NCBI GenBank assembly: GCA_036389795.1
Contig: DASVWD010000121.1
Span: 1 to 48,713 of the forward strand
Direction of reading: 5' to 3'
DNA length: 48,713 bases
Source: Longimicrobium sp.
GTDB taxonomy: Bacteria > Gemmatimonadota > Gemmatimonadetes > Longimicrobiales > Longimicrobiaceae
Shown: positions 25,900-47,126 of the stretch, piece by piece
Layout: the number at the start of each line of letters is the position of its first letter
Numbering within the stretch: position 1 is the stretch's first letter
Notes under the pieces: generated by a model
Told to the model about the DNA's origin: nothing
Seen by the model: only the letters and a program-made list of their open reading frames with translations
The model's database searches: none
Made by a program: the position numbers and the translations under genes

Positions 25900-26760
25900 A
25901 TGAAGCGCGAGCTGCACGAGCAGAACCGGCGGTCGTGGAACGCGGCCACGGCGGCGCACAACAGCCACAAGGGCGACCAGGCGGCGTTCTTCCGCGCGGG
26001 CGGGAGCACGCTGCGCGAGGAGGAGCGCGAGCTGCTCGGCGACGTGGCGGGCCTGCGCGTGGTCCACCTCCAGTGCAACGCCGGGCAGGACACGCTGAGC
26101 CTGGCGCGGCTGGGCGCCGACGTGCTCGGGGTCGACATCAGCGACGAGGCGGTCGAGTTCGCGCGGAGGCTGGCGGAGGAGTCGGGAGTCGCGGCGCGCT
26201 TCGAGCGCGCGGACGTGTACGACTGGCTGGAGCGGGCCGCGCGCGAGGGGGAGCGCTTCGACCTGGCGTTCTCGTCGTACGGGGCGGTTCCCTGGCTCTC
26301 CGACCTCCGCGCGTGGGGCGCGGGGATCGCGCGCGTCCTGCGGCCGGGCGGGCGCTTCGTGCTAGCGGAGTTCCACCCGGTGCTGGGGATGTTCGACGAG
26401 CGGTTGACGCTGCACTGGCCGTACTCCACCGGCGGCGAGCCGCTGGAGCTGGAGGGGATCGGCGACTACGTGGCCATGTCGCGGGAGGGGCTGGCGCTCG
26501 GGGAGTATCACGAGGGGGTGCGGGACTTCCGCAACCCGCATCCGTCCATCGAGTTCCCCTGGGGCGTCGGCGAGGTGGTGCAGGCGCTGATCGACGGCGG
26601 GCTCGTGATCGAGGTGCTGCGCGAGTACCTCTATTCCCGCGGCTGGAAGCCGTTCGAGAACATGCGCTACGATCCGGAGCACCGGCGCTGGTACATGCCC
26701 GACGGGATGCCGGACATCCCGATGATGTACGCCGTCGTCGCCCGCAAGCCGGTTGATTGA
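25900..26760 (+). CDS. Class I SAM-dependent methyltransferase
   Basis: The 286-residue protein has a class I methyltransferase fold. Motif I is VVHLQCNAGQDTLSLARLGA (usual GxGxG replaced by QCNAGQD, a known variant), motif II VLGVDIS, a middle acidic DVYDWLE, motif IV FDLAFSSYGAVPWL and motif V RVLRPGGRFVLAEFHPV. The C-terminal part has the family-specific GVGEVVQALIDGGLVIEVLREY and a C-terminal PDGMPDIPMMYAVVARKP. Homologues are small-molecule methyltransferases of unknown substrate. The ATG at 25900 is followed by LHEQNRRSWNAATAAHNSHK, a common N terminus in this group. It diverges from the Ppx gene and converges on the M28 gene. Confidence 0.92.
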   Translation: MKRELHEQNRRSWNAATAAHNSHKGDQAAFFRAGGSTLREEERELLGDVAGLRVVHLQCNAGQDTLSLARLGADVLGVDISDEAVEFARRLAEESGVAARFERADVYDWLERAAREGERFDLAFSSYGAVPWLSDLRAWGAGIARVLRPGGRFVLAEFHPVLGMFDERLTLHWPYSTGGEPLELEGIGDYVAMSREGLALGEYHEGVRDFRNPHPSIEFPWGVGEVVQALIDGGLVIEVLREYLYSRGWKPFENMRYDPEHRRWYMPDGMPDIPMMYAVVARKPVD

Positions 26761-28346: not shown

Positions 28347-28697
28347 TCAAGCAGAACCCGTCCGCTCGTCCTGGAATGCGAGTGCGCGGGCGAGGCATCC
28401 TTGCACCTCGTGCCAGTCGCGTTCGGAGAGGCGTCCGACGGGTTTGACTGTGGAGCGTCCAGCCATTGCGAAGTACGCGCGGAATGCGGTCGGCTGGTGC
28501 AACCCCGCGGCCTGCCAGTCCTGAAGCAGGTAATCGGTGGGCGAGCGCGCTGCGGATATCTGCGAGGTCAGCGCCGCGAGGACGAGATCCGGCCGGTGCG
28601 CGTGGTAAAGCCGGCTGGAGACGACAACAGCGGGTCGCCGCTTGACTCCGGTGGCACCTGGAAAGTCCACCGTGACTACGTCGCCGGGCTCAGCCAT
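28347..28697 (-). CDS. MazF/PemK-type toxin (type II TA)
   Basis: The 116-residue protein begins with the PemK/MazF signature PGDVVTVDFPGATGVKRRPAVVVSS, quoted in part as PGDVVTVDFPGATGVKRRP, followed by a conserved LVLAALTSQ segment and a C-terminal helix. MazF-type toxins are sequence-specific endoribonucleases that block translation. It overlaps the upstream antitoxin-like gene by 8 bp and is translated after it, the usual antitoxin-first order. Length and start are family-typical. The catalytic Arg/Thr layout is plausible (KRRP and LTSQ) but was not verified by alignment. Confidence 0.88.
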   Translation of the reverse strand: MAEPGDVVTVDFPGATGVKRRPAVVVSSRLYHAHRPDLVLAALTSQISAARSPTDYLLQDWQAAGLHQPTAFRAYFAMAGRSTVKPVGRLSERDWHEVQGCLARALAFQDERTGSA

Positions 28698-28893
28698 TGC
28701 CGGCACTCTCCTCCGCTTCCAGCCGTGCCCACGCGGAGAGGCTGAAGTCCCGCAGATCCTCTTCGCTCCATTCAGTCTGGAAGTCCACCACCGACTCCGG
28801 CGCAATCCCATCCAGGATGAGTCGGGCCAGCCGCAGCCGGTCTGAAGCCGGGAGCGGCTTGATGCGCTGGTCGTAAAGCTGTTCGACGGTCAT
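28690..28893 (-). CDS. Antitoxin of the MazF-type pair
   Basis: The 67-residue acidic protein starts MTVEQLYDQRIKPLPASDRL and continues RLARLILDGIAPESVVDFQTEW. It resembles short helical antitoxins of the kind found with PemK/MazF toxins, though the DNA-binding part is not a clear AbrB fold. The C terminus (SEEDLRDFSLSAWARLEAEE) is acidic and would mask the toxin. The gene has an excellent ribosome site (AAAGGAGG 8 bp before the ATG) and overlaps the toxin start by 8 bp. The upstream region contains TGATC/GATCA dyads at about 28970-28990 that may be an autoregulatory operator. Confidence 0.82.
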   Translation of the reverse strand: MTVEQLYDQRIKPLPASDRLRLARLILDGIAPESVVDFQTEWSEEDLRDFSLSAWARLEAEESAGNG

Positions 28894-29073: not shown

Positions 29074-31635
29074 GTGGAAAGCGGACGGAAGAAACACCTT
29101 CGCACCCGCGCCGATCCGCCCGTGGCCCGATCCGCCGCCGCCCGAAAGCTCGCCGCCGCCGACGATCCGCTCGACCGCATGGAGGCGTGGTTCGCCGCGC
29201 GCGGGTGGGAGGCGTTCGACTTCCAGCGCGAGGTGTGGGACGCCTACCTCGCGGGCGAGAGCGGGCTGATCCACGCGGCCACGGGGACGGGGAAGACGTA
29301 CGCGGCGTGGCTGGGGCCGCTGCTGGAGTGGATGCAGGGGCACCCGGACGCGCCCGCGCGGGTCCGGCGCGCCGACTCCCCACCGCTGCGCATCCTGTGG
29401 ATCACGCCGCTGCGCGCGCTGGCGGGCGACACCGAGGAGGCCCTGCGCGCGCCGCTGGAAGACCTCGCCGTCCCCTGGACGCTGGAGTCGCGCACGGGCG
29501 ACACCCCCGCGGCGGTGCGCTCCCGCCAGCGCGCGCGGCTCCCCACCGCGCTCGTCACCACCCCCGAGAGCCTGTCGCTCTTCCTCTCGCGCCCGGACGC
29601 GCGCGAGCTGTTCGCGGACCTGCGCGCCGTGGTCGTCGACGAGTGGCACGAGCTGATGGGCACCAAGCGCGGCGTGCAGACGGAGCTGGCGCTCGCCCGC
29701 CTGCGCGCCTGGCGTCCGGAGCTGCGCACCTGGGGGCTCTCGGCCACCATCGGCAACCTGGACGAGGCGCGGGCCACGCTGCTGGGCGTCGCGAGCCGGG
29801 ACCGCCCGGGGCGCATCGTGCGCGGGCTGGTGCCGAAGACGGTGGTCGTCGACGCGCTGATCCCGCCCACCATCGAGCGCTTCCCCTGGGCCGGGCACCT
29901 GGGGACGCAGATGCTCCCGCAGCTGCTGGACGTCCTCGACCAGGCGGAGAGCGCCATCGTCTTCACCAACACGCGCTCGCAGACGGAGATCTGGTTCCAG
30001 GCGATCCTGGCCGCGCGCCCGGAGTGGGCGGGGGAGATCGCGCTGCACCACGGCTCGCTCGACCGCCGGACGCGCGAGTTCGTGGAGGAGGGCTTGAGGA
30101 CGGGCCGCCTGCGCGTGGTCGTCGCCACGTCGAGCCTGGACCTCGGGGTGGACTTCTCGCCGGTGGACCGCGTGCTCCAGGTGGGCAGCCCCAAGGGCGT
30201 CGCCCGGCTGCTGCAGCGCGCGGGGCGCAGCGGCCATCGGCCGGGGGTGGAGAGCCGCGTCACCTGCGTCCCCACGCACGTGCTGGAGCTGATCGAGGTG
30301 GCCGCCGCTCGCGACGGGGTGGAGGCGGCCGCCATCGAGAGCCGCCTTCCCGTGGAGCGCCCGCTGGACCTGCTGGCGCAGCACGTGGTCACGGTCGCCC
30401 TCGGCGGCGGCTTCCGGCCGGGCGAGCTGCTGGCGGAGGTGCGCACCACCCACGCCTACGCGGAGCTGCGGTACGACGAGTGGGACTGGGTGATCGACTT
30501 CGTCACCCGCGGCGGCGAGGCGCTCCGGGCGTACCCCGAGTTCCAGCGCGTGGTGCAGAACGACGACGGGCTGTACGTCGTCGAAGACCGGCAGGTGGCG
30601 CGCCGGCACCGCATGGCGATCGGCACCATCGTGAGCGACGCGGCGATGGCCGTGCAGTACCTGCGGGGGCCGAGGCTGGGGACGGTGGAGGAGAGCTTCA
30701 TCGCGCGCCTCCGGCCCGGGGACCGCTTCTTCTTCGCCGGGAAGCCGCTGGAGTTCGTGCGGGTGCGCGACATGAAGGCGTGGGTGCGCCGCGCCAGCAC
30801 CTCGCGCGGGGCGATCCCGCGCTGGATGGGGAGCCGCATGCCGCTCTCGACGGAGCTCGCGGCGGCGCTGCGGGCGCGGCTGGAGGAGGCGAGCCGGGGG
30901 GAGTTCCGCGGCCCCGAGATGGAGGCGGTGCGCCCGATCCTGGAGATCCAGGCGCGCTGGTCGAAGATCCCCGCGGCCGACGAGCTCCTGATCGAGCGGG
31001 TGAAGACGCGCGAGGGGCACCACCTGTACTTCTTCCCCTTCGAGGGGCGGCTGGTGCACGAGGGGCTGGCGGCGCTGCTGGCGTACCGCATCTCCCGCCT
31101 GAAGGCGATCTCGTTCACCTTCTCGATGAACGACTACGGGATCGAGCTCCTCTCGCCGGAGGAGGCGCCGCTGGAGGAGGCGCTGGCGGCCGGGCTGCTG
31201 CGCCCGGAGAATCTGCTGGACGACGTGCCGGCGTCGCTGAACGCCACGGAGATGGCGCGGCGGCAGTTCCGCGAGATCGCGCGGGTGGCGGGACTGGTGT
31301 TCACCGGCTTCCCCGGCCAGTCGAAGAGCGCGCGGCAGCTGCAGGCGTCCAGCGGTCTCTTCTTCGACGTGTTCACCCGCTACGACCCCGGCAACCTGCT
31401 GGTGAGCCAGGCGCACCGCGAGGTGCTGGAGCGGCAGCTGGAGAGCAGCCGGCTGGGGCGCACGCTGGAGCGCCTCTCCGCCGGCCGAGTGGTGATCAGC
31501 GAGCCGAAGCGCACGCCGCCGCTGGCCTTCCCGCTGCTGGTGGACCGCACCCGCGAGCAGGTGTCGAGCGAAACGCTGGCCGAGCGCGTGAGGAAGATGC
31601 AGGTGCGGCTGGAGCGGGAGGCGGAGCGGGGGTGA
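29074..31635 (+). CDS. Ligase-associated DEXH helicase (Lhr type)
   Basis: The 853-residue protein is an Lhr-like superfamily 2 helicase of the ligase-associated DNA damage response type. It has a Walker A motif ATGTGKT (residues 69-75), Walker B DEWH (189-192), SAT (223-225), and motifs V/VI in ATSSLDLGVDF and QRAGRSGHRPG. The Lhr-core winged-helix region follows (residues about 400-600), then the family C terminus. In characterised systems it forms an operon with PdeM, an exonuclease and an ATP-dependent ligase. Here PdeM lies further on, separated by the TerY-P-type triad, and no ligase is present in the window. The start is GTG; an in-frame ATG at 29179 is an alternative that removes a basic tail. 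Enzyme assignment is strong. Confidence 0.93.
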   Translation: MESGRKKHLRTRADPPVARSAAARKLAAADDPLDRMEAWFAARGWEAFDFQREVWDAYLAGESGLIHAATGTGKTYAAWLGPLLEWMQGHPDAPARVRRADSPPLRILWITPLRALAGDTEEALRAPLEDLAVPWTLESRTGDTPAAVRSRQRARLPTALVTTPESLSLFLSRPDARELFADLRAVVVDEWHELMGTKRGVQTELALARLRAWRPELRTWGLSATIGNLDEARATLLGVASRDRPGRIVRGLVPKTVVVDALIPPTIERFPWAGHLGTQMLPQLLDVLDQAESAIVFTNTRSQTEIWFQAILAARPEWAGEIALHHGSLDRRTREFVEEGLRTGRLRVVVATSSLDLGVDFSPVDRVLQVGSPKGVARLLQRAGRSGHRPGVESRVTCVPTHVLELIEVAAARDGVEAAAIESRLPVERPLDLLAQHVVTVALGGGFRPGELLAEVRTTHAYAELRYDEWDWVIDFVTRGGEALRAYPEFQRVVQNDDGLYVVEDRQVARRHRMAIGTIVSDAAMAVQYLRGPRLGTVEESFIARLRPGDRFFFAGKPLEFVRVRDMKAWVRRASTSRGAIPRWMGSRMPLSTELAAALRARLEEASRGEFRGPEMEAVRPILEIQARWSKIPAADELLIERVKTREGHHLYFFPFEGRLVHEGLAALLAYRISRLKAISFTFSMNDYGIELLSPEEAPLEEALAAGLLRPENLLDDVPASLNATEMARRQFREIARVAGLVFTGFPGQSKSARQLQASSGLFFDVFTRYDPGNLLVSQAHREVLERQLESSRLGRTLERLSAGRVVISEPKRTPPLAFPLLVDRTREQVSSETLAERVRKMQVRLEREAERG

Positions 31636-31666
31636 AGCCCCCTCCCTGGCGCCTGGCGCGCCGGTC

Positions 31667-31693
31667 CCTCCCCCGCTGCGCGGTGGAGGGTGG
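31667..31693. repeat. CCCTCCCCCGCTGCGCGG repeat, copy 2
   Basis: Shares CCCTCCCCCGCTGCGCGG and a following TGGAGGG with 21843-21870. Located 32 bp after the stop codon of the helicase gene. Confidence 0.55.
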
Positions 31694-31726
31694 CCCCGCA
31701 CCGGCACTCGGCGGGGCGGAACGAGC

Positions 31727-31785
31727 GTGAGGGATGCGCGCGCAGCCCGGCCCGGAGCGCAGCGGAGGGACACGCCCAAAACCCG
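31727..31785 (+). repeat. Dispersed hairpin repeat, copy D, internally deleted
   Basis: The left end (GTGAGGGATGCGCG) is joined directly to the right end (CGCAGCCCGGCCCGGAGCGC). About 95 bp with the hairpin are missing, and the junction lies in a GCGCGC stretch present at both ends of the lost part. That fits deletion between short direct repeats. Confidence 0.8.
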
Positions 31786-31952
31786 CGGCCCGCTCTTCCG
31801 TAGTTCATCGCCGTCCGAGAGACTGAGCGGCAGGGAGTGGCGCGGATCGTCCCCAAACCCTTGTCGCCGCACGGGGATCGTGGCGATATTCGAGATCCCG
31901 CTGGACCCGCAGCCACCCCACTCGTCCACCGCAGTCCGAAGGAACCGACCCC

Positions 31953-32627
31953 ATGTCGCAGCTCTCCAGGCTCGAGGACGCCGTGGAGTTCGCGGAGAAC
32001 CCCGAGCCGCGCTGCCCCTGCGTGCTCCTGCTCGACACCTCCGGCTCCATGCGCGGCGAGCCGCTCGACGCGCTCCAGGCGGGGCTCGACGCCTTCCGCT
32101 TCGACCTGGCGCTGGACCCGCTGGCCTCGCGCCGCGTGGAGGTGGCCGTGGTGGCGTTCGACGACGCCGCGCGGCTGGTGCAGGACTGGACGAGCCCCGA
32201 CCTCTTCGACGTGCCGCTCCTGGACGCCGACGGGATGACGCACATGGGCGAGGCCATCAACCTGGCCCTCGACCTGGTGGAGGAGCGCAAGGCCCGCTAC
32301 CGCGCCTACGACGTGGCCTACTACCGCCCCTGGATCTTCCTGGTGACCGACGGCGAGCCGCAGGGCGAGCCCGACGAGGCGATCCGTGAGGCCGCGCGCC
32401 GCATCCGCGAGGCCGAGGAGAAGAAGCAGGTGGCGTTCTTCGCCGTGGGCGTGGAGCGGGCGAACCTCTCCAAGCTCAAGCAGCTCACCGTGCGCGACCC
32501 GCTGCGGCTGCGGGGGCTCGACTTCCGCGAGATGTTCGTCTGGCTCTCGCGCAGCATGCAGTCGGTGGCCCACTCGCGCCCCGACGAGTCGGTGCGCCTG
32601 CAGCCGACCGGGTGGGCGGAGCTGTGA
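31953..32627 (+). CDS. VWA-domain protein of the TerY type
   Basis: The 224-residue protein is a von Willebrand factor A domain with intact metal site: DTSGSM (residues 29-34), the threonine in GMTHMGEAI, and VTDGEPQG. It fits TerY/YegL-like proteins that are partners of a PP2C phosphatase and a protein kinase. Its stop overlaps the phosphatase start (GTGA), so translation is coupled. There is no membrane segment or signal peptide. It is likely the adaptor or ligand-binding member of the set. What it binds cannot be told from sequence. Confidence 0.92.
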   Translation: MSQLSRLEDAVEFAENPEPRCPCVLLLDTSGSMRGEPLDALQAGLDAFRFDLALDPLASRRVEVAVVAFDDAARLVQDWTSPDLFDVPLLDADGMTHMGEAINLALDLVEERKARYRAYDVAYYRPWIFLVTDGEPQGEPDEAIREAARRIREAEEKKQVAFFAVGVERANLSKLKQLTVRDPLRLRGLDFREMFVWLSRSMQSVAHSRPDESVRLQPTGWAEL

Positions 32628-33442
32628 CGGACGCCACGCTCGTCCCCACCGCGGCCCCGGCCGCACCCTCCGCCGGCCGGACCGCCGGAGACTGGCGGGT
32701 GCTGGGTGTCTCGGTGCGCGGCACCGGCCACGCGCGCGGCGGGCTCCCCTGCCAGGACGCGCACGACTGGCGCCGGCTCCCCCGCGGCGCCGTGGCGCTG
32801 GCGGCGGCCGACGGCGCCGGCAGCGCCCCCCTGGCCGAGGCCGGGGCGCGCGCCGCCGCCCACGCCGCCGTGGACGCCCTCGCCCGCGCGGCGGCCGCCG
32901 TCGACGCCTCGGGAGACGGGTGGACGGCCGCGCTCGACGCCGCCTTGGCCGCCGCGCTCGAGGCCGTGCACGCCGAGGCCGCCCGCCGCGGCGCCGACAT
33001 CCGCGACCTGGCCACCACGCTCATCGCCTGCGTGGCGTGGGACGGCGGGGTGGCGGCGGCGCAGGTGGGCGACGGCGCCGTGATCGTGGCCACGGAGGAC
33101 GGGGGGATGCGCAGCGTCACCGTGCCCACCTCGGGCGAGTTCGCCAACGAGACGGTCTTCCTCACCTCGCCCGGCGCGGTCGCGGCGGCGCAGCGGGCGG
33201 CGTGGCGGGGCGAGGCGCGGCACGTGGGCGTCTTCACCGACGGGCTGCAGGGGCTGGCGCTCAAGTTCCCGGAGAAGGTGCCGCACGCGCCGTTCTTCGC
33301 CCCGCTCTTCGCCTTCGCGGCGGAGGGCGGCGACCCGCGCGAGGCGGAGCGGCAGCTGGGGGCCTTCCTCTCCGGCCCGCGGGTGACGGCGCGCTCCGAC
33401 GACGACCTCACCCTGCTGCTGGCGGCGCGCGGCCATGGCTGA
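32624..33442 (+). CDS. PP2C-type protein phosphatase of the TerY-P triad
   Basis: The 272-residue protein is a PP2C/PPM phosphatase. The motifs are CQDAHDW (about 43-49), AADGAGSA (about 61-68), QVGDGAVIV, FTDGLQGL, and SDDDLTLLLAAR near the C terminus. The usual DGxG and D-D pairs that hold the two metal ions are present, so it should be active. The GTG start at 32624 overlaps the VWA stop by 4 bp; a GTG 12 bp upstream is an alternative. Its stop overlaps the kinase start by 8 bp. The first 20 residues are Ala/Pro-rich. It should dephosphorylate the targets of the neighbouring kinase. Confidence 0.92.
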   Translation: MTDATLVPTAAPAAPSAGRTAGDWRVLGVSVRGTGHARGGLPCQDAHDWRRLPRGAVALAAADGAGSAPLAEAGARAAAHAAVDALARAAAAVDASGDGWTAALDAALAAALEAVHAEAARRGADIRDLATTLIACVAWDGGVAAAQVGDGAVIVATEDGGMRSVTVPTSGEFANETVFLTSPGAVAAAQRAAWRGEARHVGVFTDGLQGLALKFPEKVPHAPFFAPLFAFAAEGGDPREAERQLGAFLSGPRVTARSDDDLTLLLAARGHG

Positions 33443-35405
33443 CGTGCTCGCCCTCCCCGCGCCCCTGATCTTCCGCCGCCGCCGGACGCTGGAGCTGCTG
33501 GCGCTGGACGACGCGCTGGAGCTGGGCGCGGGCGGCGAGGCGCGCGTGCTGGGGCTGCCGCGCGACCCGACGCTCGTCGCCAAGCTCTACCACGCCCCCA
33601 CCATCCAGCGCGCCCGCAAGCTGGCGCTGATGATGGAAGACCCGCCGGAGCTGGACCCCGCCGTGGCCGCGCTGGCATGGCCGTGCGACCTGCTGCTGGA
33701 CGGGCGCGGGCGCTTCGCCGGGTTCCTGATGCCGCGCGCCGAGGGGCCGCGCGTCTTCGAGTTCTACAACCCCAGCACCCGCCGCCGGACGGCCCCGCTC
33801 TGCCACTACGGCGTGCTGCACCGCGCGGGGGCCAACCTGGCCGCGGCGTTCGAGGCGCTGCACGCGCGCGGCTACGTGGTGGGCGACGTCAACGAGTCGA
33901 ACGTGCTGCTGGGCGAGGGCGGCGCGGTGACGCTGGTGGACACCGACTCGTTCCAGGTGCGCGACCCCGACGACGGCACCGTGCACCGCTCGCACGTGGG
34001 CAAGCCCGAGTTCACCCCGCCCGAGCTGCAGGGTCTCTCCTTCGCCGAGCTGGACCGCCTCCCCGAGCACGACCTCTTCGGCCTGGCGGCGCTCCTCTTC
34101 CTCCTGCTGATGGAGGGGACGCACCCCTTCGCCTCGCGCCTGGCCGACGGCGGCGAGGTGCCCCCGGTGGAGGAGCGCATCCGCCGCGGGCTCTTCCCCC
34201 ACGGCGCCGAGCACCCGGTCTGCCGCCCGCCGCGCCTGGCTCCCCGCTTCGAGCTGCTCGACCCGGCGCTCCAGGCGCTCTTCCTGCGCGCCTTCCTGGG
34301 CGGCCACCAGGACCCCGCCGCGCGCCCCACCGCCGCCGAGTGGCGCGGCGCGCTCGCCGGGGCCGAGGCGGCGCTCGTGACGTGCGCGACGAACCCCCGC
34401 CACCGCCACGGGCCCCACCTGGACGCCTGCCCCTGGTGCGAGCGCGCCGGGCTGCTCCAGGGGCGCGACCCCTTCCCCGAGCAGGCGGCCCCGGCCCCGC
34501 CCCGCCCCGCGCGCGCGCCGCGGCGGCGGGTGCAGGCCGCGGCGCCGGCGCCCGCCCCCGTCGTTGCCGCCGCGCCCACCCCGCCCGTCCGGCTCGCGCA
34601 GACGGCGCCGGGGCCGCTGGCGGCGCCGCCGGGCAGCGTGTTCGCCGACGCCCCCTGGCAGCGGCCGGCGCTGGCGAAGCTGGACCCGGAGCTGCGGGCG
34701 GCGCTCGCGCCCGGGGCGCTGCGCAGCCCGGTGGCGTGGCTGGCGCCGGGCGTGTGGATGCTGCTGGCGAGCCACCTCCCCGCCCTCCAGGTGCTGGGCC
34801 TGTTCGGGCTGATGATGATCTTCATCTGCATGGTGGCGTGGGGCGCCGGGCCCGTCGACCGGCGCACGCTGGCCGCGGCCATCCTGCTGCTCCTGGCGGC
34901 CGCCGTGCTCACCGGCCCGCCCCCCTGGATGTCGGCGCAGGCGGCTCCGTACGACGACTACCCGCGCTACGACGCCGAGGCCGCGGCCGCGGCCCCGCTC
35001 GCGCCCGCGCCCGGGCCGGAGCCCGCGCCGGCGCCGGAGCCGCAGCCGAAGGTGATGCTCGGCGAGACGTACACGGGGGCGGACCTGGACGGGGCCCCCG
35101 TGCTGGAGAACCGGGCCGACGTCGAGCGGCGGCTGCTGGAGCTGTACCAGACCACGCTGTGGTACCGGGAGACGCAGGGCCTGCTGCAGGTCCGGGTCTT
35201 CGTGCGGCCCGACGGCACGGTGGACCCCCGCTCGGTCGACGTCTCGCAGGGCCTCTCGCGCCCGGAGTACGCCGACCAGGTGGAGGAGGTCCTGGCCGGG
35301 ATGCGCTTCTCCCCGCTCACCGCGTCGGGGGGCCGGCCGGCGTCGGCGTGGATCTCGGGCGACGTCTGGCTCTGGCGGGAGGGAGGCGGCGAGCCGGACC
35401 GGTGA
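33435..35405 (+). CDS. Ser/Thr kinase-zinc knuckle-TM-TonB-C fusion
   Basis: The 656-residue protein has four parts. Residues 25-310 form a protein kinase of the TerY-P/YegI type: glycine loop LGAGGEARV, ATP lysine Lys50 (LVAKLY), catalytic GDVNESN (Asp151, Asn156), metal DTDSF (Asp169) and FTPPEL in place of APE. Residues 317-336 are a zinc knuckle (TCATNPRHRHGPH, then CPWC), as in these kinases. A proline/alanine linker (350-400) leads to hydrophobic helices at about 434-493. After a second linker, residues 545-650 match a TonB C-terminal domain: VLENRADVERRLLELY, VRVFVRPDGTV, MRFSPL and a final WISGDVWLW. The kinase and TonB-C parts therefore face opposite sides of the membrane. Translation is coupled to both neighbours. 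Confidence 0.88.
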   Translation: MADVLALPAPLIFRRRRTLELLALDDALELGAGGEARVLGLPRDPTLVAKLYHAPTIQRARKLALMMEDPPELDPAVAALAWPCDLLLDGRGRFAGFLMPRAEGPRVFEFYNPSTRRRTAPLCHYGVLHRAGANLAAAFEALHARGYVVGDVNESNVLLGEGGAVTLVDTDSFQVRDPDDGTVHRSHVGKPEFTPPELQGLSFAELDRLPEHDLFGLAALLFLLLMEGTHPFASRLADGGEVPPVEERIRRGLFPHGAEHPVCRPPRLAPRFELLDPALQALFLRAFLGGHQDPAARPTAAEWRGALAGAEAALVTCATNPRHRHGPHLDACPWCERAGLLQGRDPFPEQAAPAPPRPARAPRRRVQAAAPAPAPVVAAAPTPPVRLAQTAPGPLAAPPGSVFADAPWQRPALAKLDPELRAALAPGALRSPVAWLAPGVWMLLASHLPALQVLGLFGLMMIFICMVAWGAGPVDRRTLAAAILLLLAAAVLTGPPPWMSAQAAPYDDYPRYDAEAAAAAPLAPAPGPEPAPAPEPQPKVMLGETYTGADLDGAPVLENRADVERRLLELYQTTLWYRETQGLLQVRVFVRPDGTVDPRSVDVSQGLSRPEYADQVEEVLAGMRFSPLTASGGRPASAWISGDVWLWREGGGEPDR

Positions 35406-36070
35406 CGGGATTCACGTTCGAGCTCGCCGGCGAGGGGCTGGTGCTCCTCCCCGAGCGCGCGGTGTTCTGGAAAAGCGCGCGGACGCTGCTGGTGGCCGAC
35501 CCGCACTGGGGGAAGGCGGCGGCGTTCCGCGCGGCGGGCGTGGCCGTCCCCGGCGGCACCACCAGCGCGGGGCTCGCGCGGCTCTCGCGCGCCCTGGAGC
35601 GCACCGGCGCGGCGCGGCTGGTGATCCTGGGCGACCTCTTCCACGCCCGCGAGGGCCGCGCCCCGCGCACCCTGGCCGCCGCGCGCGCCTGGCGGGAGCG
35701 GCACCCGGGGCTCGAGGTGGTGCTGGTGCGCGGCAACCACGACCGCCGCGCCGGAGATCCGCCCCCCGAGCTGGAGATCGCCTGCGTGGACCCGCCCCGG
35801 GCCCACGGCCCCTTCGTCTTCTCCCACCACCCCTTCGAGTCGGCCGCCGGCTACGTGCTGGCGGGCCACGTGCACCCCTCGGTCACCCTGCGCGGCCCCG
35901 GGCGCCAGCGCCAGCGGCTGCCGTGCTTCCACTTCGGCCCGCGCGTGGGGATCCTTCCCGCCTTCGGCGACTTCACCGGCACGGCCGACGTGGCGGTCTG
36001 CCCCGGCGACCGCGTCTTCGTGGTCGCCGGCGACGACGTGGTCGAGGTCGGCGGGGCCAAAGGCGGCTGA
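35402..36070 (+). CDS. pdeM: Ligase-associated DNA damage response phosphoesterase PdeM
   Basis: The 222-residue protein is a calcineurin-like phosphoesterase of the PdeM type. The metal motifs are visible in order: ADPHWGK (DxH), ILGDLFHAR (GDxxH-like), VRGNHDRR (GNHD), FSHHP, and VLAGHVHPS (GHxH). The PdeM-specific spacing with WGK after the first motif and SHHPF before GHVH distinguishes it from MPP-like enzymes. The start GTG overlaps the kinase stop (GTGA), so it belongs to the triad operon, although family members normally sit next to the Lhr-type helicase. A known partner set is helicase, exonuclease and ligase. It is a candidate for processing DNA ends or an unknown phosphodiester. 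Confidence 0.93.
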   Translation: MTGFTFELAGEGLVLLPERAVFWKSARTLLVADPHWGKAAAFRAAGVAVPGGTTSAGLARLSRALERTGAARLVILGDLFHAREGRAPRTLAAARAWRERHPGLEVVLVRGNHDRRAGDPPPELEIACVDPPRAHGPFVFSHHPFESAAGYVLAGHVHPSVTLRGPGRQRQRLPCFHFGPRVGILPAFGDFTGTADVAVCPGDRVFVVAGDDVVEVGGAKGG

Positions 36071-36426
36071 TGCCGATCGGGAATCCGATCCGGTGATCGG
36101 GCTCGTAGGGAACTTCGATCGCGAATACCGAAGCAGATCGTCGATCAGCATAAGCCGCGGCAACCACGGCAGAAAGCCTCGCGGACCCCGCGAGGCTTCG
36201 ACTGCGGAACGCCGCGCGGGCGAGGGCCCTCCGGCCGCCCGCCGGCGCGCCCGCGTCGGCGGGCTTCCTTGTCCGCCGGCCGCTTCTCCAGTAGCTTCCA
36301 TCAGCGCGCGCGCTTCCCCCTCATCATCCCGACGAGTCCACCGCCCGCCCGGGCCTTCGGGCGCCGCCGCCCTTTTCCCGATCCCGTCACCCGACCCCGG
36401 CCGTCTTCCACCGTCACGCGACCACG
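36071..36426. other. 356-bp intergenic region with hairpin element
   Basis: It contains a GAAGCCTCGCG hairpin element (36150-36205, reverse) and GC-rich, low-complexity sequence before the amidase gene. The first 80 bp are rich in GATC (several GATCGG, TCGATC). No gene is seen. Confidence 0.5.
36150..36205 (-). repeat. GAAGCCTCGCG hairpin element, copy 2
   Basis: AAGCCTCGCGG (36174-36184) pairs perfectly with CCGCGAGGCTT (36188-36198). Read on the minus strand, the element and its flanks (GTCGAAGCCTCGCGGGG, then TTTCTGCCGTGGTTGCC) match 21912-21967. It can also stop transcription of the PdeM operon. Confidence 0.7.
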
Positions 36427-40911: not shown

Positions 40912-42633
40912 TCACGAGCCCGCCTGCTGGGGCACCACGTCCACCCACCCGTCGCGGATGCGGACGGTGGTGCCGTCGAACCGGGTGAGCTGGAAGTACG
41001 CGTCGTCCTCGTTGAAGGTGATCGACAGCTCCTGCAGGAGGCGAATGGCGATCGCCTCGCCCAGCAGGAGCGACTGCTGGTGGTCGGAGCGCCAGTGCAC
41101 GCCGGCGGCGTTGCGGAAGAGCGAGACGTTGTCGGCCAGCTTGTTCAGCTCGCCCCCCACGGTGAGCGTGGGGCCGGTGTACGGGAGCAGGGCGGTGCCG
41201 TCGGCGCTGGCCTGCACGGGGCTCTCGATGGTCTTGCTCTCGTCGAAGAACGCCTTGAGGATGGTCACGCACGCCCCGCTGATGGTGGCGTGCCCCGCGC
41301 CGTACGCCGGGTGCGTGGGAGCCCCCTCGGGGTAGGCCTGTGGGAGCAGGTACGTCGTCGACGGCGCCCAGCGCTCCGGGTAGTACGGCGCCAGCCCGCC
41401 CGCGGTGAGCGAGTTGACGATGCTGCCGTCGATCGGGTAGGTGCGGGCGCCGGTGATGTGGTTGTGCACCCGCCCGCCGTACTCCTCGGGGCGCAGCCGC
41501 CGGTGCACCCCCCACTTCTGCCACCACACCGCGCGCCCGGCGCGGCCGATCACCTCGGTGAGCACCTCGATCACGTGCACGTCGCCGAAGGTCACGAACC
41601 CCGCCTCGGTGGGCGAGTCGGGGGCCGGCGGAGCGTACGGGTTCCCCGCGTCGAAGGGGAACTCGCGGTCGCGCATCGGCACCGCGCCGGCATTGGGAGT
41701 CTGCTGGTTGCCCAGGGGCTCCGACAGGAGGTACCACGCCGCGTTGTAGTAGGAGTCGATCACCAGGTCGAAGTGCACGTAGTTGGTCCCGTCGCGCAGG
41801 TTGCGGATGAAGCGGCGCTGCGTGAAGTCGAACTGGTCCTGGCCGCGGAAGTCCGCGCCGTTCTGCGCCTGCAGCCAGGTGTCGAAGACGGTCAGGTAGT
41901 CGGCCGCGGCGCCGATCTCCGGGTACCCCTTCACCGTCTGCTGGCGCTGGTCGATCACCCGCGCCCCGTACGCGATGAAGCCGTCGGTGGCGTTGCGGCC
42001 GCCGCCCGGCATCTTGCGCGGGTCGCTGTTGCCCTTCCACAGGAACTGCGACACGTACGGGCCCGCCTGCGCCCCGGGCTCGAGCCCGCGGAAGACGGTC
42101 TGCGCCGTGACGCCCCGGGGCCCGCCGTACTCCCAGAACTCGCCGTTGATCGACGCGACGGCGGCCGCGATCAGCGGGTCGGTGCCGTAGTTGATGAACG
42201 GCACGTCGCGGGCGACCGCCATCCAGTACAGCTCGCCCGCCTCGTGCGCGGTCACCGCGCCGTCGAAGCGCGGCGCGGGGGGCTGGGTGAGCTCCTGGCT
42301 GTCGGGGCCCTCCAGGTGGAAGGCCAGCCCGGACTGCGGGTTGGTGAGCTTGATCCCGCCGGGGCCCAGGCGGATCTGCTCGAAGTCGGCGGGGTCGCGG
42401 CTCTGCACCGCCCGCAGCAGGGTGGCGTACGACTCGGGGTCGGGGTCGCCCAGGGCGTCGTGCTCCAGCCCCTTCGAGTAGTTGCCCGCGAAGGGCCGGG
42501 TGGGGTAGTTGACCTCGTCCGAGTTGTTGTCGTCGACCGGATGCGGCCGCTCGGCCGCGAGCTCGGCCGCCTGCTGCCGGATGCCGAGGGCGGCCAGGCG
42601 CCGCTCTTCCTCGCGCCGGGGAAGCTGAGGCAT
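40912..42633 (-). CDS. Vanadium-dependent haloperoxidase-like protein 1
   Basis: The 573-residue protein is a vanadium haloperoxidase/PAP2-fold enzyme. The vanadate-binding residues are present: WWQKWGVHRRLRP (Lys373, Arg381), HPAYGAGHATISGAC (His448 following Gly447), and LFRNAAGVHWRSD (Arg507, His513). The Ser of the usual SGH is Ala here (AGH), which can alter halide use. It belongs to the vanadium bromoperoxidase-like bacterial group. There is no signal peptide, so cytosolic or exported by a non-Sec route. It is preceded by a GGAGGAACG ribosome site and a long leader. The reaction would be halide oxidation with peroxide, or phosphatase if vanadate is absent. A phosphatase-only role cannot be excluded. 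Confidence 0.88.
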   Translation of the reverse strand: MPQLPRREEERRLAALGIRQQAAELAAERPHPVDDNNSDEVNYPTRPFAGNYSKGLEHDALGDPDPESYATLLRAVQSRDPADFEQIRLGPGGIKLTNPQSGLAFHLEGPDSQELTQPPAPRFDGAVTAHEAGELYWMAVARDVPFINYGTDPLIAAAVASINGEFWEYGGPRGVTAQTVFRGLEPGAQAGPYVSQFLWKGNSDPRKMPGGGRNATDGFIAYGARVIDQRQQTVKGYPEIGAAADYLTVFDTWLQAQNGADFRGQDQFDFTQRRFIRNLRDGTNYVHFDLVIDSYYNAAWYLLSEPLGNQQTPNAGAVPMRDREFPFDAGNPYAPPAPDSPTEAGFVTFGDVHVIEVLTEVIGRAGRAVWWQKWGVHRRLRPEEYGGRVHNHITGARTYPIDGSIVNSLTAGGLAPYYPERWAPSTTYLLPQAYPEGAPTHPAYGAGHATISGACVTILKAFFDESKTIESPVQASADGTALLPYTGPTLTVGGELNKLADNVSLFRNAAGVHWRSDHQQSLLLGEAIAIRLLQELSITFNEDDAYFQLTRFDGTTVRIRDGWVDVVPQQAGS

Positions 42634-44861: not shown

Positions 44862-47126
44862 CTACACCACCGGCACCACCTTGCCGTCGAAGATGCGGAT
44901 GCGGACGCCGTCGAACCGGGTCAGCTCGAAGAAGGCGTCGTCCTCGTTGAAGCCCAGGGTCATCTCCTGGAGCAGGCCGATGGCCACCGCCTCGCCCAGG
45001 GGGAGCGACGCGGTGTAGTCGCTGCGCCAGTGCACGCCTGCCGCGTCGCGGAAGAGGGCGATGTTGCCGGCCAGCTTGTTCAGCTCGCCGCCCACGGTCA
45101 TCTGCCCCGCGTCGGCGCCGGTGTAGGGCACCAGCGAGAGGCCATCGGCGGTGGCCTGCAGGGGGTTCTCGATCTGCGCGGTGTCGTCGAAGAACGCCTT
45201 GAGGATGGTGGCGCACGCCCCCGAGCCGGTGGCGTGCCCCGCCCCGTACGCCGGGTGCGTGGGGGCGCCCTCGGGGTACGCCTGCGGGAGCAGGTACGAG
45301 CTGGGGAAGCGCTCGCCCGCCTGCCCCACGTACGGCGCCAGCCAGCCGGACTGCAGCGAGGTGAGGATGCTCGGATGCAGGGGGTACGTGCGCGCGCCGG
45401 TGAGGTGGTTGTGCACGCGCCCGCCGTACTCCTCGGGGCGCAGCCGCCGGTGCACCCCCCACTTCTGCCACCACACCGCCCGCAGCGCCCGCCCCAGCAC
45501 CTCGGCCAGCACCTGGAGGAGGTGGATCGGGCCGAAGGTGGCGAAGCCGGTCTGCGTCCTCGAGTCGCCCGCGGCTCCCGGCGGGTCGTACGGGTTCCCC
45601 TGGTCCGGCGAGAACTCCAGGTCGATCTGCGGGCGCCCGGTGGTCCCCCCGCTCACGAAGGTGAGCTGGTTCCCGCGCGGCTCCGACATCAGGTACCAGG
45701 CGGCGTTGTAGTAGGCGTCCAGCACCTGGTCGAAGTGCACGAAGGTGGCCCCGTCGCGCAGCGAGCGGATGAAGCGCTTGACGGTGTCGAGGACGTCCAT
45801 GCCGCGCCTGTCCATTCCGTTCTGCACGTTCAGCCAGGTCTGGAACACCGCGATCGAGTTCGTTCCCGCCTGGGCCGGGACGATGCGCTGGTCGATCCCC
45901 CGCGCGCCGTAGGAGATGATCCCGTCGGCGGCGTCGCGGCCCTGCCCGGCCGGCTTGCGCGGGTCGACGTTCCCCTTCCACAGGAACTGCGAGACGTAGG
46001 GGCCCGCCTGCTCGCCCGGATAGATGCCCCGGAAGACGTTCTGCGCCGTCACCGGCACCGTCCCGCCGAACCGCGGGAACTCGCCATTGAGCGAGGAGAC
46101 CGCCGCCGCGATCGTGCCGTCGGTCCCGTAGTCGATGAAGGCGACGTCGCGGGCCAGCGCCATCCAGTACAGCTCGCCCATCTCGTGCGCCGCCACCTCG
46201 CTGTCGAAGCGGGGGGCGGGCTGCAGGGTGAGCGCCTGCGCGTCGGGGCCCTCGAGGTCGAAGGCGAGTCCGGACTGCGGGTTGGTTAGCTTCAGCGCCG
46301 TGGACGAGGCGAGCTGGATCTCCTCGAAGTCGGCCGGGTCCTCGCTCTGCAGCGCGCGCAGCAGGGTGCCGTACGAGATCGGCTCCGGGTCTCCCAGCGA
46401 GTCGTGCTTCAGGCTCTTGGAGTAGCTGCCGATGAAGGGGCGGTCGGGGTAGTTCACCTCGTCGTTGTTGTTGGCGTGCTCGTCGTGGCGCCGCCCCGCC
46501 GCCAGCTCGGCCGCGTCGGCGCGGACGGCGCGCGCCGACCGGCGCCGCTCCTCCACGCGCCGCGCGAGCGAGGTGGCGGCCACGTTCAGGTTGTCGAAGA
46601 CCGCCACGCCGGGCGACGGGGCCGGCTGCCAGGTCCCGGTGAAGATCCCGGGGCTCACCGCGGTCACGGCGAAGGGGGCCGGGTTGCTGTACAGCGTGGT
46701 CCACGCGGACCCGTCGGGCGAGACCTCCCAGAAGACGGTGCCGTTCAGCTCGCGCAGCCGCAGCCAGCGGTGCGCCTCCGGGTCGTAGGGCACCGTGAGG
46801 AACACCAGGTACGCGCCCCCGACCTGCTGCTCGCAGCGCAGCAGGCCGTCCACCAGCCCGATGCTGAGCTCGTTCCCCTCGCTCAGGTACGCCCGCAGGC
46901 GCGCCTGCCCCGTGCGCGGGGCCTGGACGAGCTCCACCCAGATGCGCGAGCCGGTGAGGTCGTACGTGCCCTTGGCGGTGTAGCCGGCGTAGCTGTCGGC
47001 CGCGCTGCTGGCCAGCCACAGCTCCAGGCGCCGGTTCACCTCGCGGGCGTCGCCGAACACCCACCATTTCGTGGTGTCGGAAGCGTTGTCGTTGAAGTCC
47101 TCGGTGAAGGTGTGTGCCTTGGCCAT
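44862..47126 (-). CDS. LamG-like and vanadium haloperoxidase fusion protein 2
   Basis: The 754-residue protein has an N-terminal jelly-roll domain (1-183) of LamG/concanavalin type: FTEDFNDNASDTTKWWVFGD, ELWLASSAADSYAGYTAKG and VFWEVSPDGSAWTTLYS. A vanadium haloperoxidase-like domain follows (about 220-754). It shares long stretches with haloperoxidase 1: SQFLWKG, WWQKWGVHRRLRPEEYGG, PQAYPEGAPTHPAYGAGHAT, NKLAGNIALFRDAAGVHWRSD (quoted in parts). All vanadate ligands are kept. There is no signal peptide. A linker of about 35 charged residues (AARRVEERRRSARAVRADAAE) joins the domains. The ribosome site AAGGA is 8 bp before the ATG. It has its own copy of the leader upstream and a strong terminator after it. 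The N-terminal domain may target the enzyme to a carbohydrate. Confidence 0.88.
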   Translation of the reverse strand: MAKAHTFTEDFNDNASDTTKWWVFGDAREVNRRLELWLASSAADSYAGYTAKGTYDLTGSRIWVELVQAPRTGQARLRAYLSEGNELSIGLVDGLLRCEQQVGGAYLVFLTVPYDPEAHRWLRLRELNGTVFWEVSPDGSAWTTLYSNPAPFAVTAVSPGIFTGTWQPAPSPGVAVFDNLNVAATSLARRVEERRRSARAVRADAAELAAGRRHDEHANNNDEVNYPDRPFIGSYSKSLKHDSLGDPEPISYGTLLRALQSEDPADFEEIQLASSTALKLTNPQSGLAFDLEGPDAQALTLQPAPRFDSEVAAHEMGELYWMALARDVAFIDYGTDGTIAAAVSSLNGEFPRFGGTVPVTAQNVFRGIYPGEQAGPYVSQFLWKGNVDPRKPAGQGRDAADGIISYGARGIDQRIVPAQAGTNSIAVFQTWLNVQNGMDRRGMDVLDTVKRFIRSLRDGATFVHFDQVLDAYYNAAWYLMSEPRGNQLTFVSGGTTGRPQIDLEFSPDQGNPYDPPGAAGDSRTQTGFATFGPIHLLQVLAEVLGRALRAVWWQKWGVHRRLRPEEYGGRVHNHLTGARTYPLHPSILTSLQSGWLAPYVGQAGERFPSSYLLPQAYPEGAPTHPAYGAGHATGSGACATILKAFFDDTAQIENPLQATADGLSLVPYTGADAGQMTVGGELNKLAGNIALFRDAAGVHWRSDYTASLPLGEAVAIGLLQEMTLGFNEDDAFFELTRFDGVRIRIFDGKVVPVV

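Follow-up and report, generated by a model that had tools for sequence, protein, structure and literature searches.

A TerY-P-type signalling triad inserted between the helicase and PdeM genes of a ligase-associated repair operon in a Longimicrobium lineage

TerY-P triads, in which a TerY-like VWA protein and a PP2C phosphatase are combined with a zinc-ribbon kinase, are associated with DNA-processing genes (PMC11090510, PMC4978471) and have been hypothesised to act as metal-sensing switches (PMC11090510). In the CoCoNuTs they are accompanied by a helicase and nucleases, and in stand-alone defence modules an OB-fold occupies the position of the kinase tail (PMC11090510), while certain TerY-P variants confer phage protection in Pseudomonas aeruginosa PAO1 (PMC10889362). 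The second system of relevance here is the ligase-associated DNA damage response set, two members of which, the helicase Lhr and the nuclease MPE (PdeM), are encoded by adjoining genes in most bacteria (276 of 319 genomes, PMC8301817). The locus described in this work joins the two systems and is located in a stretch of Longimicrobium sp. DNA of 48,713 nucleotides (contig DASVWD010000121.1 of assembly GCA_036389795.1), the whole of which is referred to below as the window; five genes on its + strand, between 29.1 and 36.1 kb, encode an Lhr-Core helicase, a VWA protein, a PP2C phosphatase, a Ser/Thr kinase and PdeM. Both the triad and the repair set are of known kinds; no example of their combination by insertion was found in the literature that could be searched.

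The comparisons involved a number of genomes (G codes, with the window genome as G000) and loci (L codes). Five genomes from other families and orders of the phylum (G016, G031, G042, G054 and G055) have the order exonuclease-ligase-helicase-PdeM, with junctions of -4/-4/-4 bp in G016, G054 and G055 and of -4/-4/-1 bp in G042. In three species of the window's genus (G003, G005 and G006) a single locus reads exonuclease-ligase-(other genes)-helicase-VWA-PP2C-kinase-PdeM. Because of this outgroup operon order and of the single locus in these three species, exonuclease-ligase-helicase-PdeM is the ancestral state, and the triad was inserted between the helicase and PdeM. Genes for the exonuclease (TIGR04122, 496 bits) and for the ligase (TIGR04120, 645 bits) are also present in the genome of the window, where they adjoin each other on a different contig (G000:C21:78669-81632). 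The ligase-associated set is complete there, all four genes scoring above curated cut-offs, and is split over two loci in this assembly rather than gathered in one cluster. A preliminary description of the window had implied that the ligase and the exonuclease are missing, which proved wrong for the genome, and had left it undecided whether the triad had replaced part of the operon or had been inserted into it; since both genes are intact on another contig, nothing was replaced, and the insertion stands. A second helicase-PdeM pair next to a ligase, the finding of which would have spoken against that description, was not found in the window genome.

Ten genomes, each of a different species, were compared within the genus (Longimicrobium-like soil bacteria). 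The order helicase-VWA-PP2C-kinase-PdeM is present in six of them (G000, G002, G008, G003, G005 and G006) and is not, therefore, a peculiarity of the window genome; in G000, G002 and G008 the exonuclease-ligase pair is located on a contig other than that of the helicase-triad-PdeM block. The spacing between the kinase gene and PdeM in the six species is -4, +11, +11, +2, +2 and +2 bp, and the gap between the helicase and VWA genes in the relatives is 278-647 bp or holds an extra gene. Zero flanking genes within 9 kb are common to the window and the sister clade G002/G008, in which the whole block is kept, and this turnover of the flanks, together with the tight kinase-PdeM spacing, speaks for the retention of the block as a single unit. 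The kinase gene is tandemly duplicated between PP2C and PdeM in G002 and G008 (L038:4677-8557 and L044:4313-8235), and the copy adjoining PdeM in G002 has lost its recognisable TonB_C tail. The triad has thus been inserted, retained and coupled to PdeM.

The kinase tree unites the two triad clades with support of 100/98.7 and places G018, another member of the family, outside them, which points to a single acquisition in the genus; a model with two origins was also considered, but the kinase tree favours one. A single insertion of the triad is the simplest reading. The tree built from the four repair proteins shows a pair of triad clades and a third clade that lacks the triad, and at least two changes are needed to explain it; a grouping of all triad species in a single clade is not rejected (approximately unbiased test, p=0.19), so that this tree appears compatible with one gain and one loss, or with one gain.

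The helicase gene (29074..31635, start codon uncertain, product conserved from residue ~35) encodes a DEXH enzyme of the ligase-associated type, which was matched in a profile search by the TIGR04121 equivalog (1144.5 bits against a cut-off of 850) and contains the Pfam domains PF19306, PF08494, DEAD and Helicase_C; a sequence search of solved structures aligned it to Mycobacterium Lhr (5v9x, E=1.7e-55). Its stop codon at 31635 is followed by a gap of 317 bp (31636..31952), in which a consensus scan found no promoter-like or terminator-like match; the absence of a match in the scan for sigma-70 consensus promoters is expected at this G+C. The VWA gene (31953..32627; PF00092, 47.8 bits) encodes a TerY-like protein with the metal-site motif DTSGS...T...TDG (DxSxS, T, D) visible in its translation. 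It overlaps by 4 bp with the PP2C gene (32624..33442, GTG start; PF13672, 168.4 bits), which in turn overlaps by 8 bp with the kinase gene (33435..35405). The last overlap, also of 4 bp, is with PdeM (35402..36070, GTG start), which belongs to the PdeM/MPE family of Mn-dependent endonucleases (TIGR04123, 225.8 bits against a cut-off of 150) and was aligned over 204 residues to the solved nuclease MPE of Pseudomonas putida (6nvo, E=4e-62), the metal-ligand motifs being conserved. For the VWA protein and for PP2C, no relative was found among the solved structures when these were searched by sequence alone. A terminator-like hairpin with a 12 bp stem, 11 pairs of which are G-C, is located 3' of PdeM (36237..36264, + strand); this consensus match is likely to mark the end of the PdeM-containing unit. 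The coordinates agree with the three overlaps and with the position of an Lhr-type helicase 317 bp upstream of VWA, as given in the preliminary description, and the profile matches, together with the invariant residues and fold of the kinase, bear out its gene identities; the composition of the triad (VWA, PP2C and a kinase with a C-terminal zinc ribbon) upholds its assignment to the TerY-P type.

The kinase is a protein of 656 residues, in which a kinase domain is followed by a zinc ribbon, a Pro-rich linker, membrane helices and a TonB_C-like tail. The Pfam match of the kinase domain was weak and under the cut-off, and the domain (residues ~29-312, 33519..34370) was defined by alignment, AlphaFold and Foldseek. 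Residues K50, D151, N156, D169 and D171, which include the catalytic Lys, the Asp and Asn of the HRD-type motif and the DFG-type Asp, are invariant in an alignment with eight relatives; the pLDDT of the domain is mostly >85, and Foldseek matched the model to PknB (E ~5e-10) and other Ser/Thr kinases. The zinc-ribbon-like motif C317-x5-H323-x8-C332-PW-C335 (34383..34439) is invariant in all aligned relatives, and its region is also modelled with confidence, the linkers having low confidence. Two or three hydrophobic helices (residues ~432-493, 34728..34913), modelled with moderate confidence, are a probable membrane anchor; the hydrophobic stretches are visible in the alignment and were predicted in the L107 kinase too. 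The C-terminal part (residues ~538-648, 35046..35378) forms a small mixed domain in the AlphaFold model and has no Pfam match of its own, being too diverged, though it was aligned to the TonB_C of relatives: PF03544 is found above the cut-off at the same position in G005 (52.6 bits), G006 (51.2 bits) and G002 (31.3 bits), as well as in G018 and G265. The same core is joined in other phyla to WD40, TPR, FGE-sulfatase, DsbA-like or glycine-rich tails, and the tail of the window kinase looks like a swapped sensing or adaptor part. The zinc-ribbon kinase core represents a modular family with exchanged C-terminal domains (loci L107-L186, many of them cyanobacterial). Helix-hairpin-helix tails, suspected by eye in the kinases of G162 and G265, gained no support from Pfam at E 0.001.

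Compared with the described TerY-P triads, the locus has the same three components in the same order, a zinc-ribbon kinase and an association with DNA-processing genes, but its kinase has an added membrane segment and a TonB_C-like tail, and it is partnered by a repair helicase and PdeM rather than by restriction genes. TerD, which is not a defining feature of such triads, these being known also without ter genes, was found in none of the ten genomes of the genus, so that the classical tellurite-resistance context is unlikely. The locus resembles the ligase-associated set in the presence of the four genes in the genome and in the neighbourhood of Lhr and PdeM, and differs from it in the distribution of these genes over two places in the window genome and in the triad between helicase and PdeM. 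CoCoNuTs of types II and III-A with TerY-P likewise combine the triad, a helicase and nucleases in one locus (PMC11090510), whereas the helicase and nuclease of the window are of the housekeeping repair type; neither an McrB/C-type GTPase nor a HEPN/coiled-coil nuclease was detected among the scanned proteins of the 28.3-39.5 kb region or the scanned flanking genes. A species-level genome collection yielded 280 confirmed stretches of the kinase family, and gene order was read in the best 80 loci, 47 of which contain VWA, PP2C and the kinase. The triads of Cyanobacteria, Armatimonadota, Verrucomicrobiota and Planctomycetota among them share this order and have kinases 48-64% identical to that of the window over the zinc-ribbon kinase, but they differ in the kinase tails and have no PdeM or ligase-associated helicase nearby. 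Within the best 80 loci, PdeM or the ligase-associated helicase was seen only in two Longimicrobium-type loci; one more locus has a different helicase, 28% identical.

The explanation that we favour, with modest confidence, is a lineage-specific operon capture, by which the TerY-P-type triad has come to be co-expressed with PdeM and may regulate it. The ancestor would have possessed an exonuclease-ligase-helicase-PdeM operon with 4-bp overlaps, and a pre-existing triad of VWA, PP2C and a putatively membrane-anchored zinc-ribbon kinase would have been inserted between helicase and PdeM within the genus. The coupling of PdeM would then have switched from the helicase to the kinase gene, and the nuclease would be produced jointly with a switch that acts by reversible phosphorylation. 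In one clade the exonuclease and ligase genes would have remained in the one locus, where they are now mixed with other genes; in the window genome they lie on another contig. As a result PdeM, and more weakly the helicase, might be put under the control of a stimulus sensed by the triad, which could be metal or envelope stress; such control would most likely operate via co-expression, direct phosphorylation of PdeM or of the helicase being possible as well.

Triads without a nearby PdeM are widespread beyond the phylum, in Cyanobacteria and others. The preliminary description had called for a test of whether triad and PdeM co-occur more often than expected by chance, and outside the genus such an excess was not seen: of 30 genomes of an independent genus, 17 encode a distant relative of the kinase (~33% identical to that of the window) and 21 encode PdeM, and PdeM is present in 11 of the 17 kinase-positive versus 10 of the 13 kinase-negative genomes, so that there is no positive association between the two. 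A general association of triad and PdeM was accordingly ruled out beyond the genus. Several observations weigh against the capture. Within the genus, G001, G007 and G009 have helicase and PdeM without the triad, which must therefore be dispensable for PdeM. In G004 the helicase, VWA and kinase genes lie at a contig end, with PP2C not recognisable and PdeM on another contig, and this degraded triad could be the result either of real decay or of a repeat-driven assembly break. The two triad clades do not fall together in the species tree, which calls for one gain and one loss unless the tree is unresolved. Finally, unrelated genes stand at the same helicase/PdeM junction in sister genera, an aldo-keto reductase gene in G020, ending 12 bp from PdeM, and a glycosyltransferase gene in G012 (L052:643-1590 / L047:1150-2319), and an insertion at this point need not, therefore, mean function.

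Another explanation, a serious rival which we regard as quite possible, is neutral hitch-hiking, whereby the junction tolerates insertions, the arrival of the triad at this site was accidental and the linkage is kept by the need of PdeM for read-through, with no regulation involved; the linkage of PdeM and triad may reflect mere dependence on read-through. The two genes found at the junction in G020 and G012 speak for it, as do the Fic gene that separates ligase and helicase in G015, also of a sister genus (L050:8782-9846), the genes for a methyltransferase, a BNR-repeat protein and a polysaccharide deacetylase within the locus of clade B, the lack of co-occurrence of the distant kinase and PdeM in the independent genus and the fact that triads elsewhere stand alone. 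Chance landing accounts less well for the persistence of the five-gene block in six species despite the complete turnover of its surroundings, or for the duplicated kinases of G002 and G008, both copies of which were kept between PP2C and PdeM with tight spacing, and the other insertions at the helicase/PdeM junction occur in one genome each.

A direct phospho-gating, put forward in the preliminary description, in which the kinase and PP2C would reversibly phosphorylate PdeM and/or the Lhr helicase and so switch DNA processing on under stress or phage attack, seems unlikely. The pairing of TerY-P with a helicase and nucleases in CoCoNuTs (PMC11090510) and the intact catalytic residues of both kinase and phosphatase are in its favour, but the linkage to the helicase is loose, as seen in the variable helicase-VWA gap, and the triad is missing from three of the ten species, which do possess the repair pair. 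The close kinase family was found in nine genomes of the phylum sample, including three outside the genus, G018 and G265, where PdeM was not found, and G162, where it is on another contig; given that the kinases of G018 and G265 are also TonB_C-tailed, the substrates of such kinases cannot be PdeM alone. It is rather unlikely that a membrane-anchored kinase and PP2C act directly on PdeM and the Lhr helicase in what would be the first known phospho-controlled form of this pathway of ligase-associated repair, linked to a signal from the envelope or from metals. That the locus is simply a stand-alone antiphage TerY-P system sitting in a repair operon is very improbable in spite of the protection of P. 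aeruginosa PAO1 by TerY-P variants (PMC10889362), considering that neither VWA nor PP2C was matched by a PADLOC model and that the kinase gave only a weak match to PD-T4-6, that the kinase has a zinc ribbon with a membrane and TonB_C-like tail, no OB-fold being seen, as opposed to the OB-fold described for stand-alone defence modules (PMC11090510), and that no defence genes were identified adjoining the triad.

The fusion of triad and repair genes, together with sister species in which the helicase-PdeM junction is uninterrupted, offers a natural experiment on whether PdeM is a substrate or a passenger. In G009 the 4-bp helicase/PdeM overlap is kept and the downstream amidase and acetate kinase genes are common with the window, and this genome therefore represents the uninterrupted site.

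Several further features were observed in the compared genomes and in the surroundings of the block. In G004 (L104, G004:C93:1-5000) the kinase is cut after the zinc ribbon, and four TCTCCC..GGGAGA palindromic repeats are located within these 5 kb, the contig ending in one of them. A second family of the phylum has a distant VWA/PP2C/kinase triad unlinked to PdeM (L102, L103, L105 and L106 of G351, G226, G121 and G264). A gene for a PemK/MazF-like toxin (28347-28811, - strand; PF02452, 46 bits) lies immediately before the helicase gene in the window and is oriented the other way. A methyltransferase gene (25900-26760, + strand), relatives of which (64-67% identity) adjoin or sit inside the helicase locus in G001, G003, G005 and G006, is an old neighbour of the helicase in the window's genus. 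Two related large proteins with no Pfam match are encoded further downstream (40912-42633 and 44862-47126, both on the - strand), and proteins related to them are likewise encoded beside the operon in G005 and G006.
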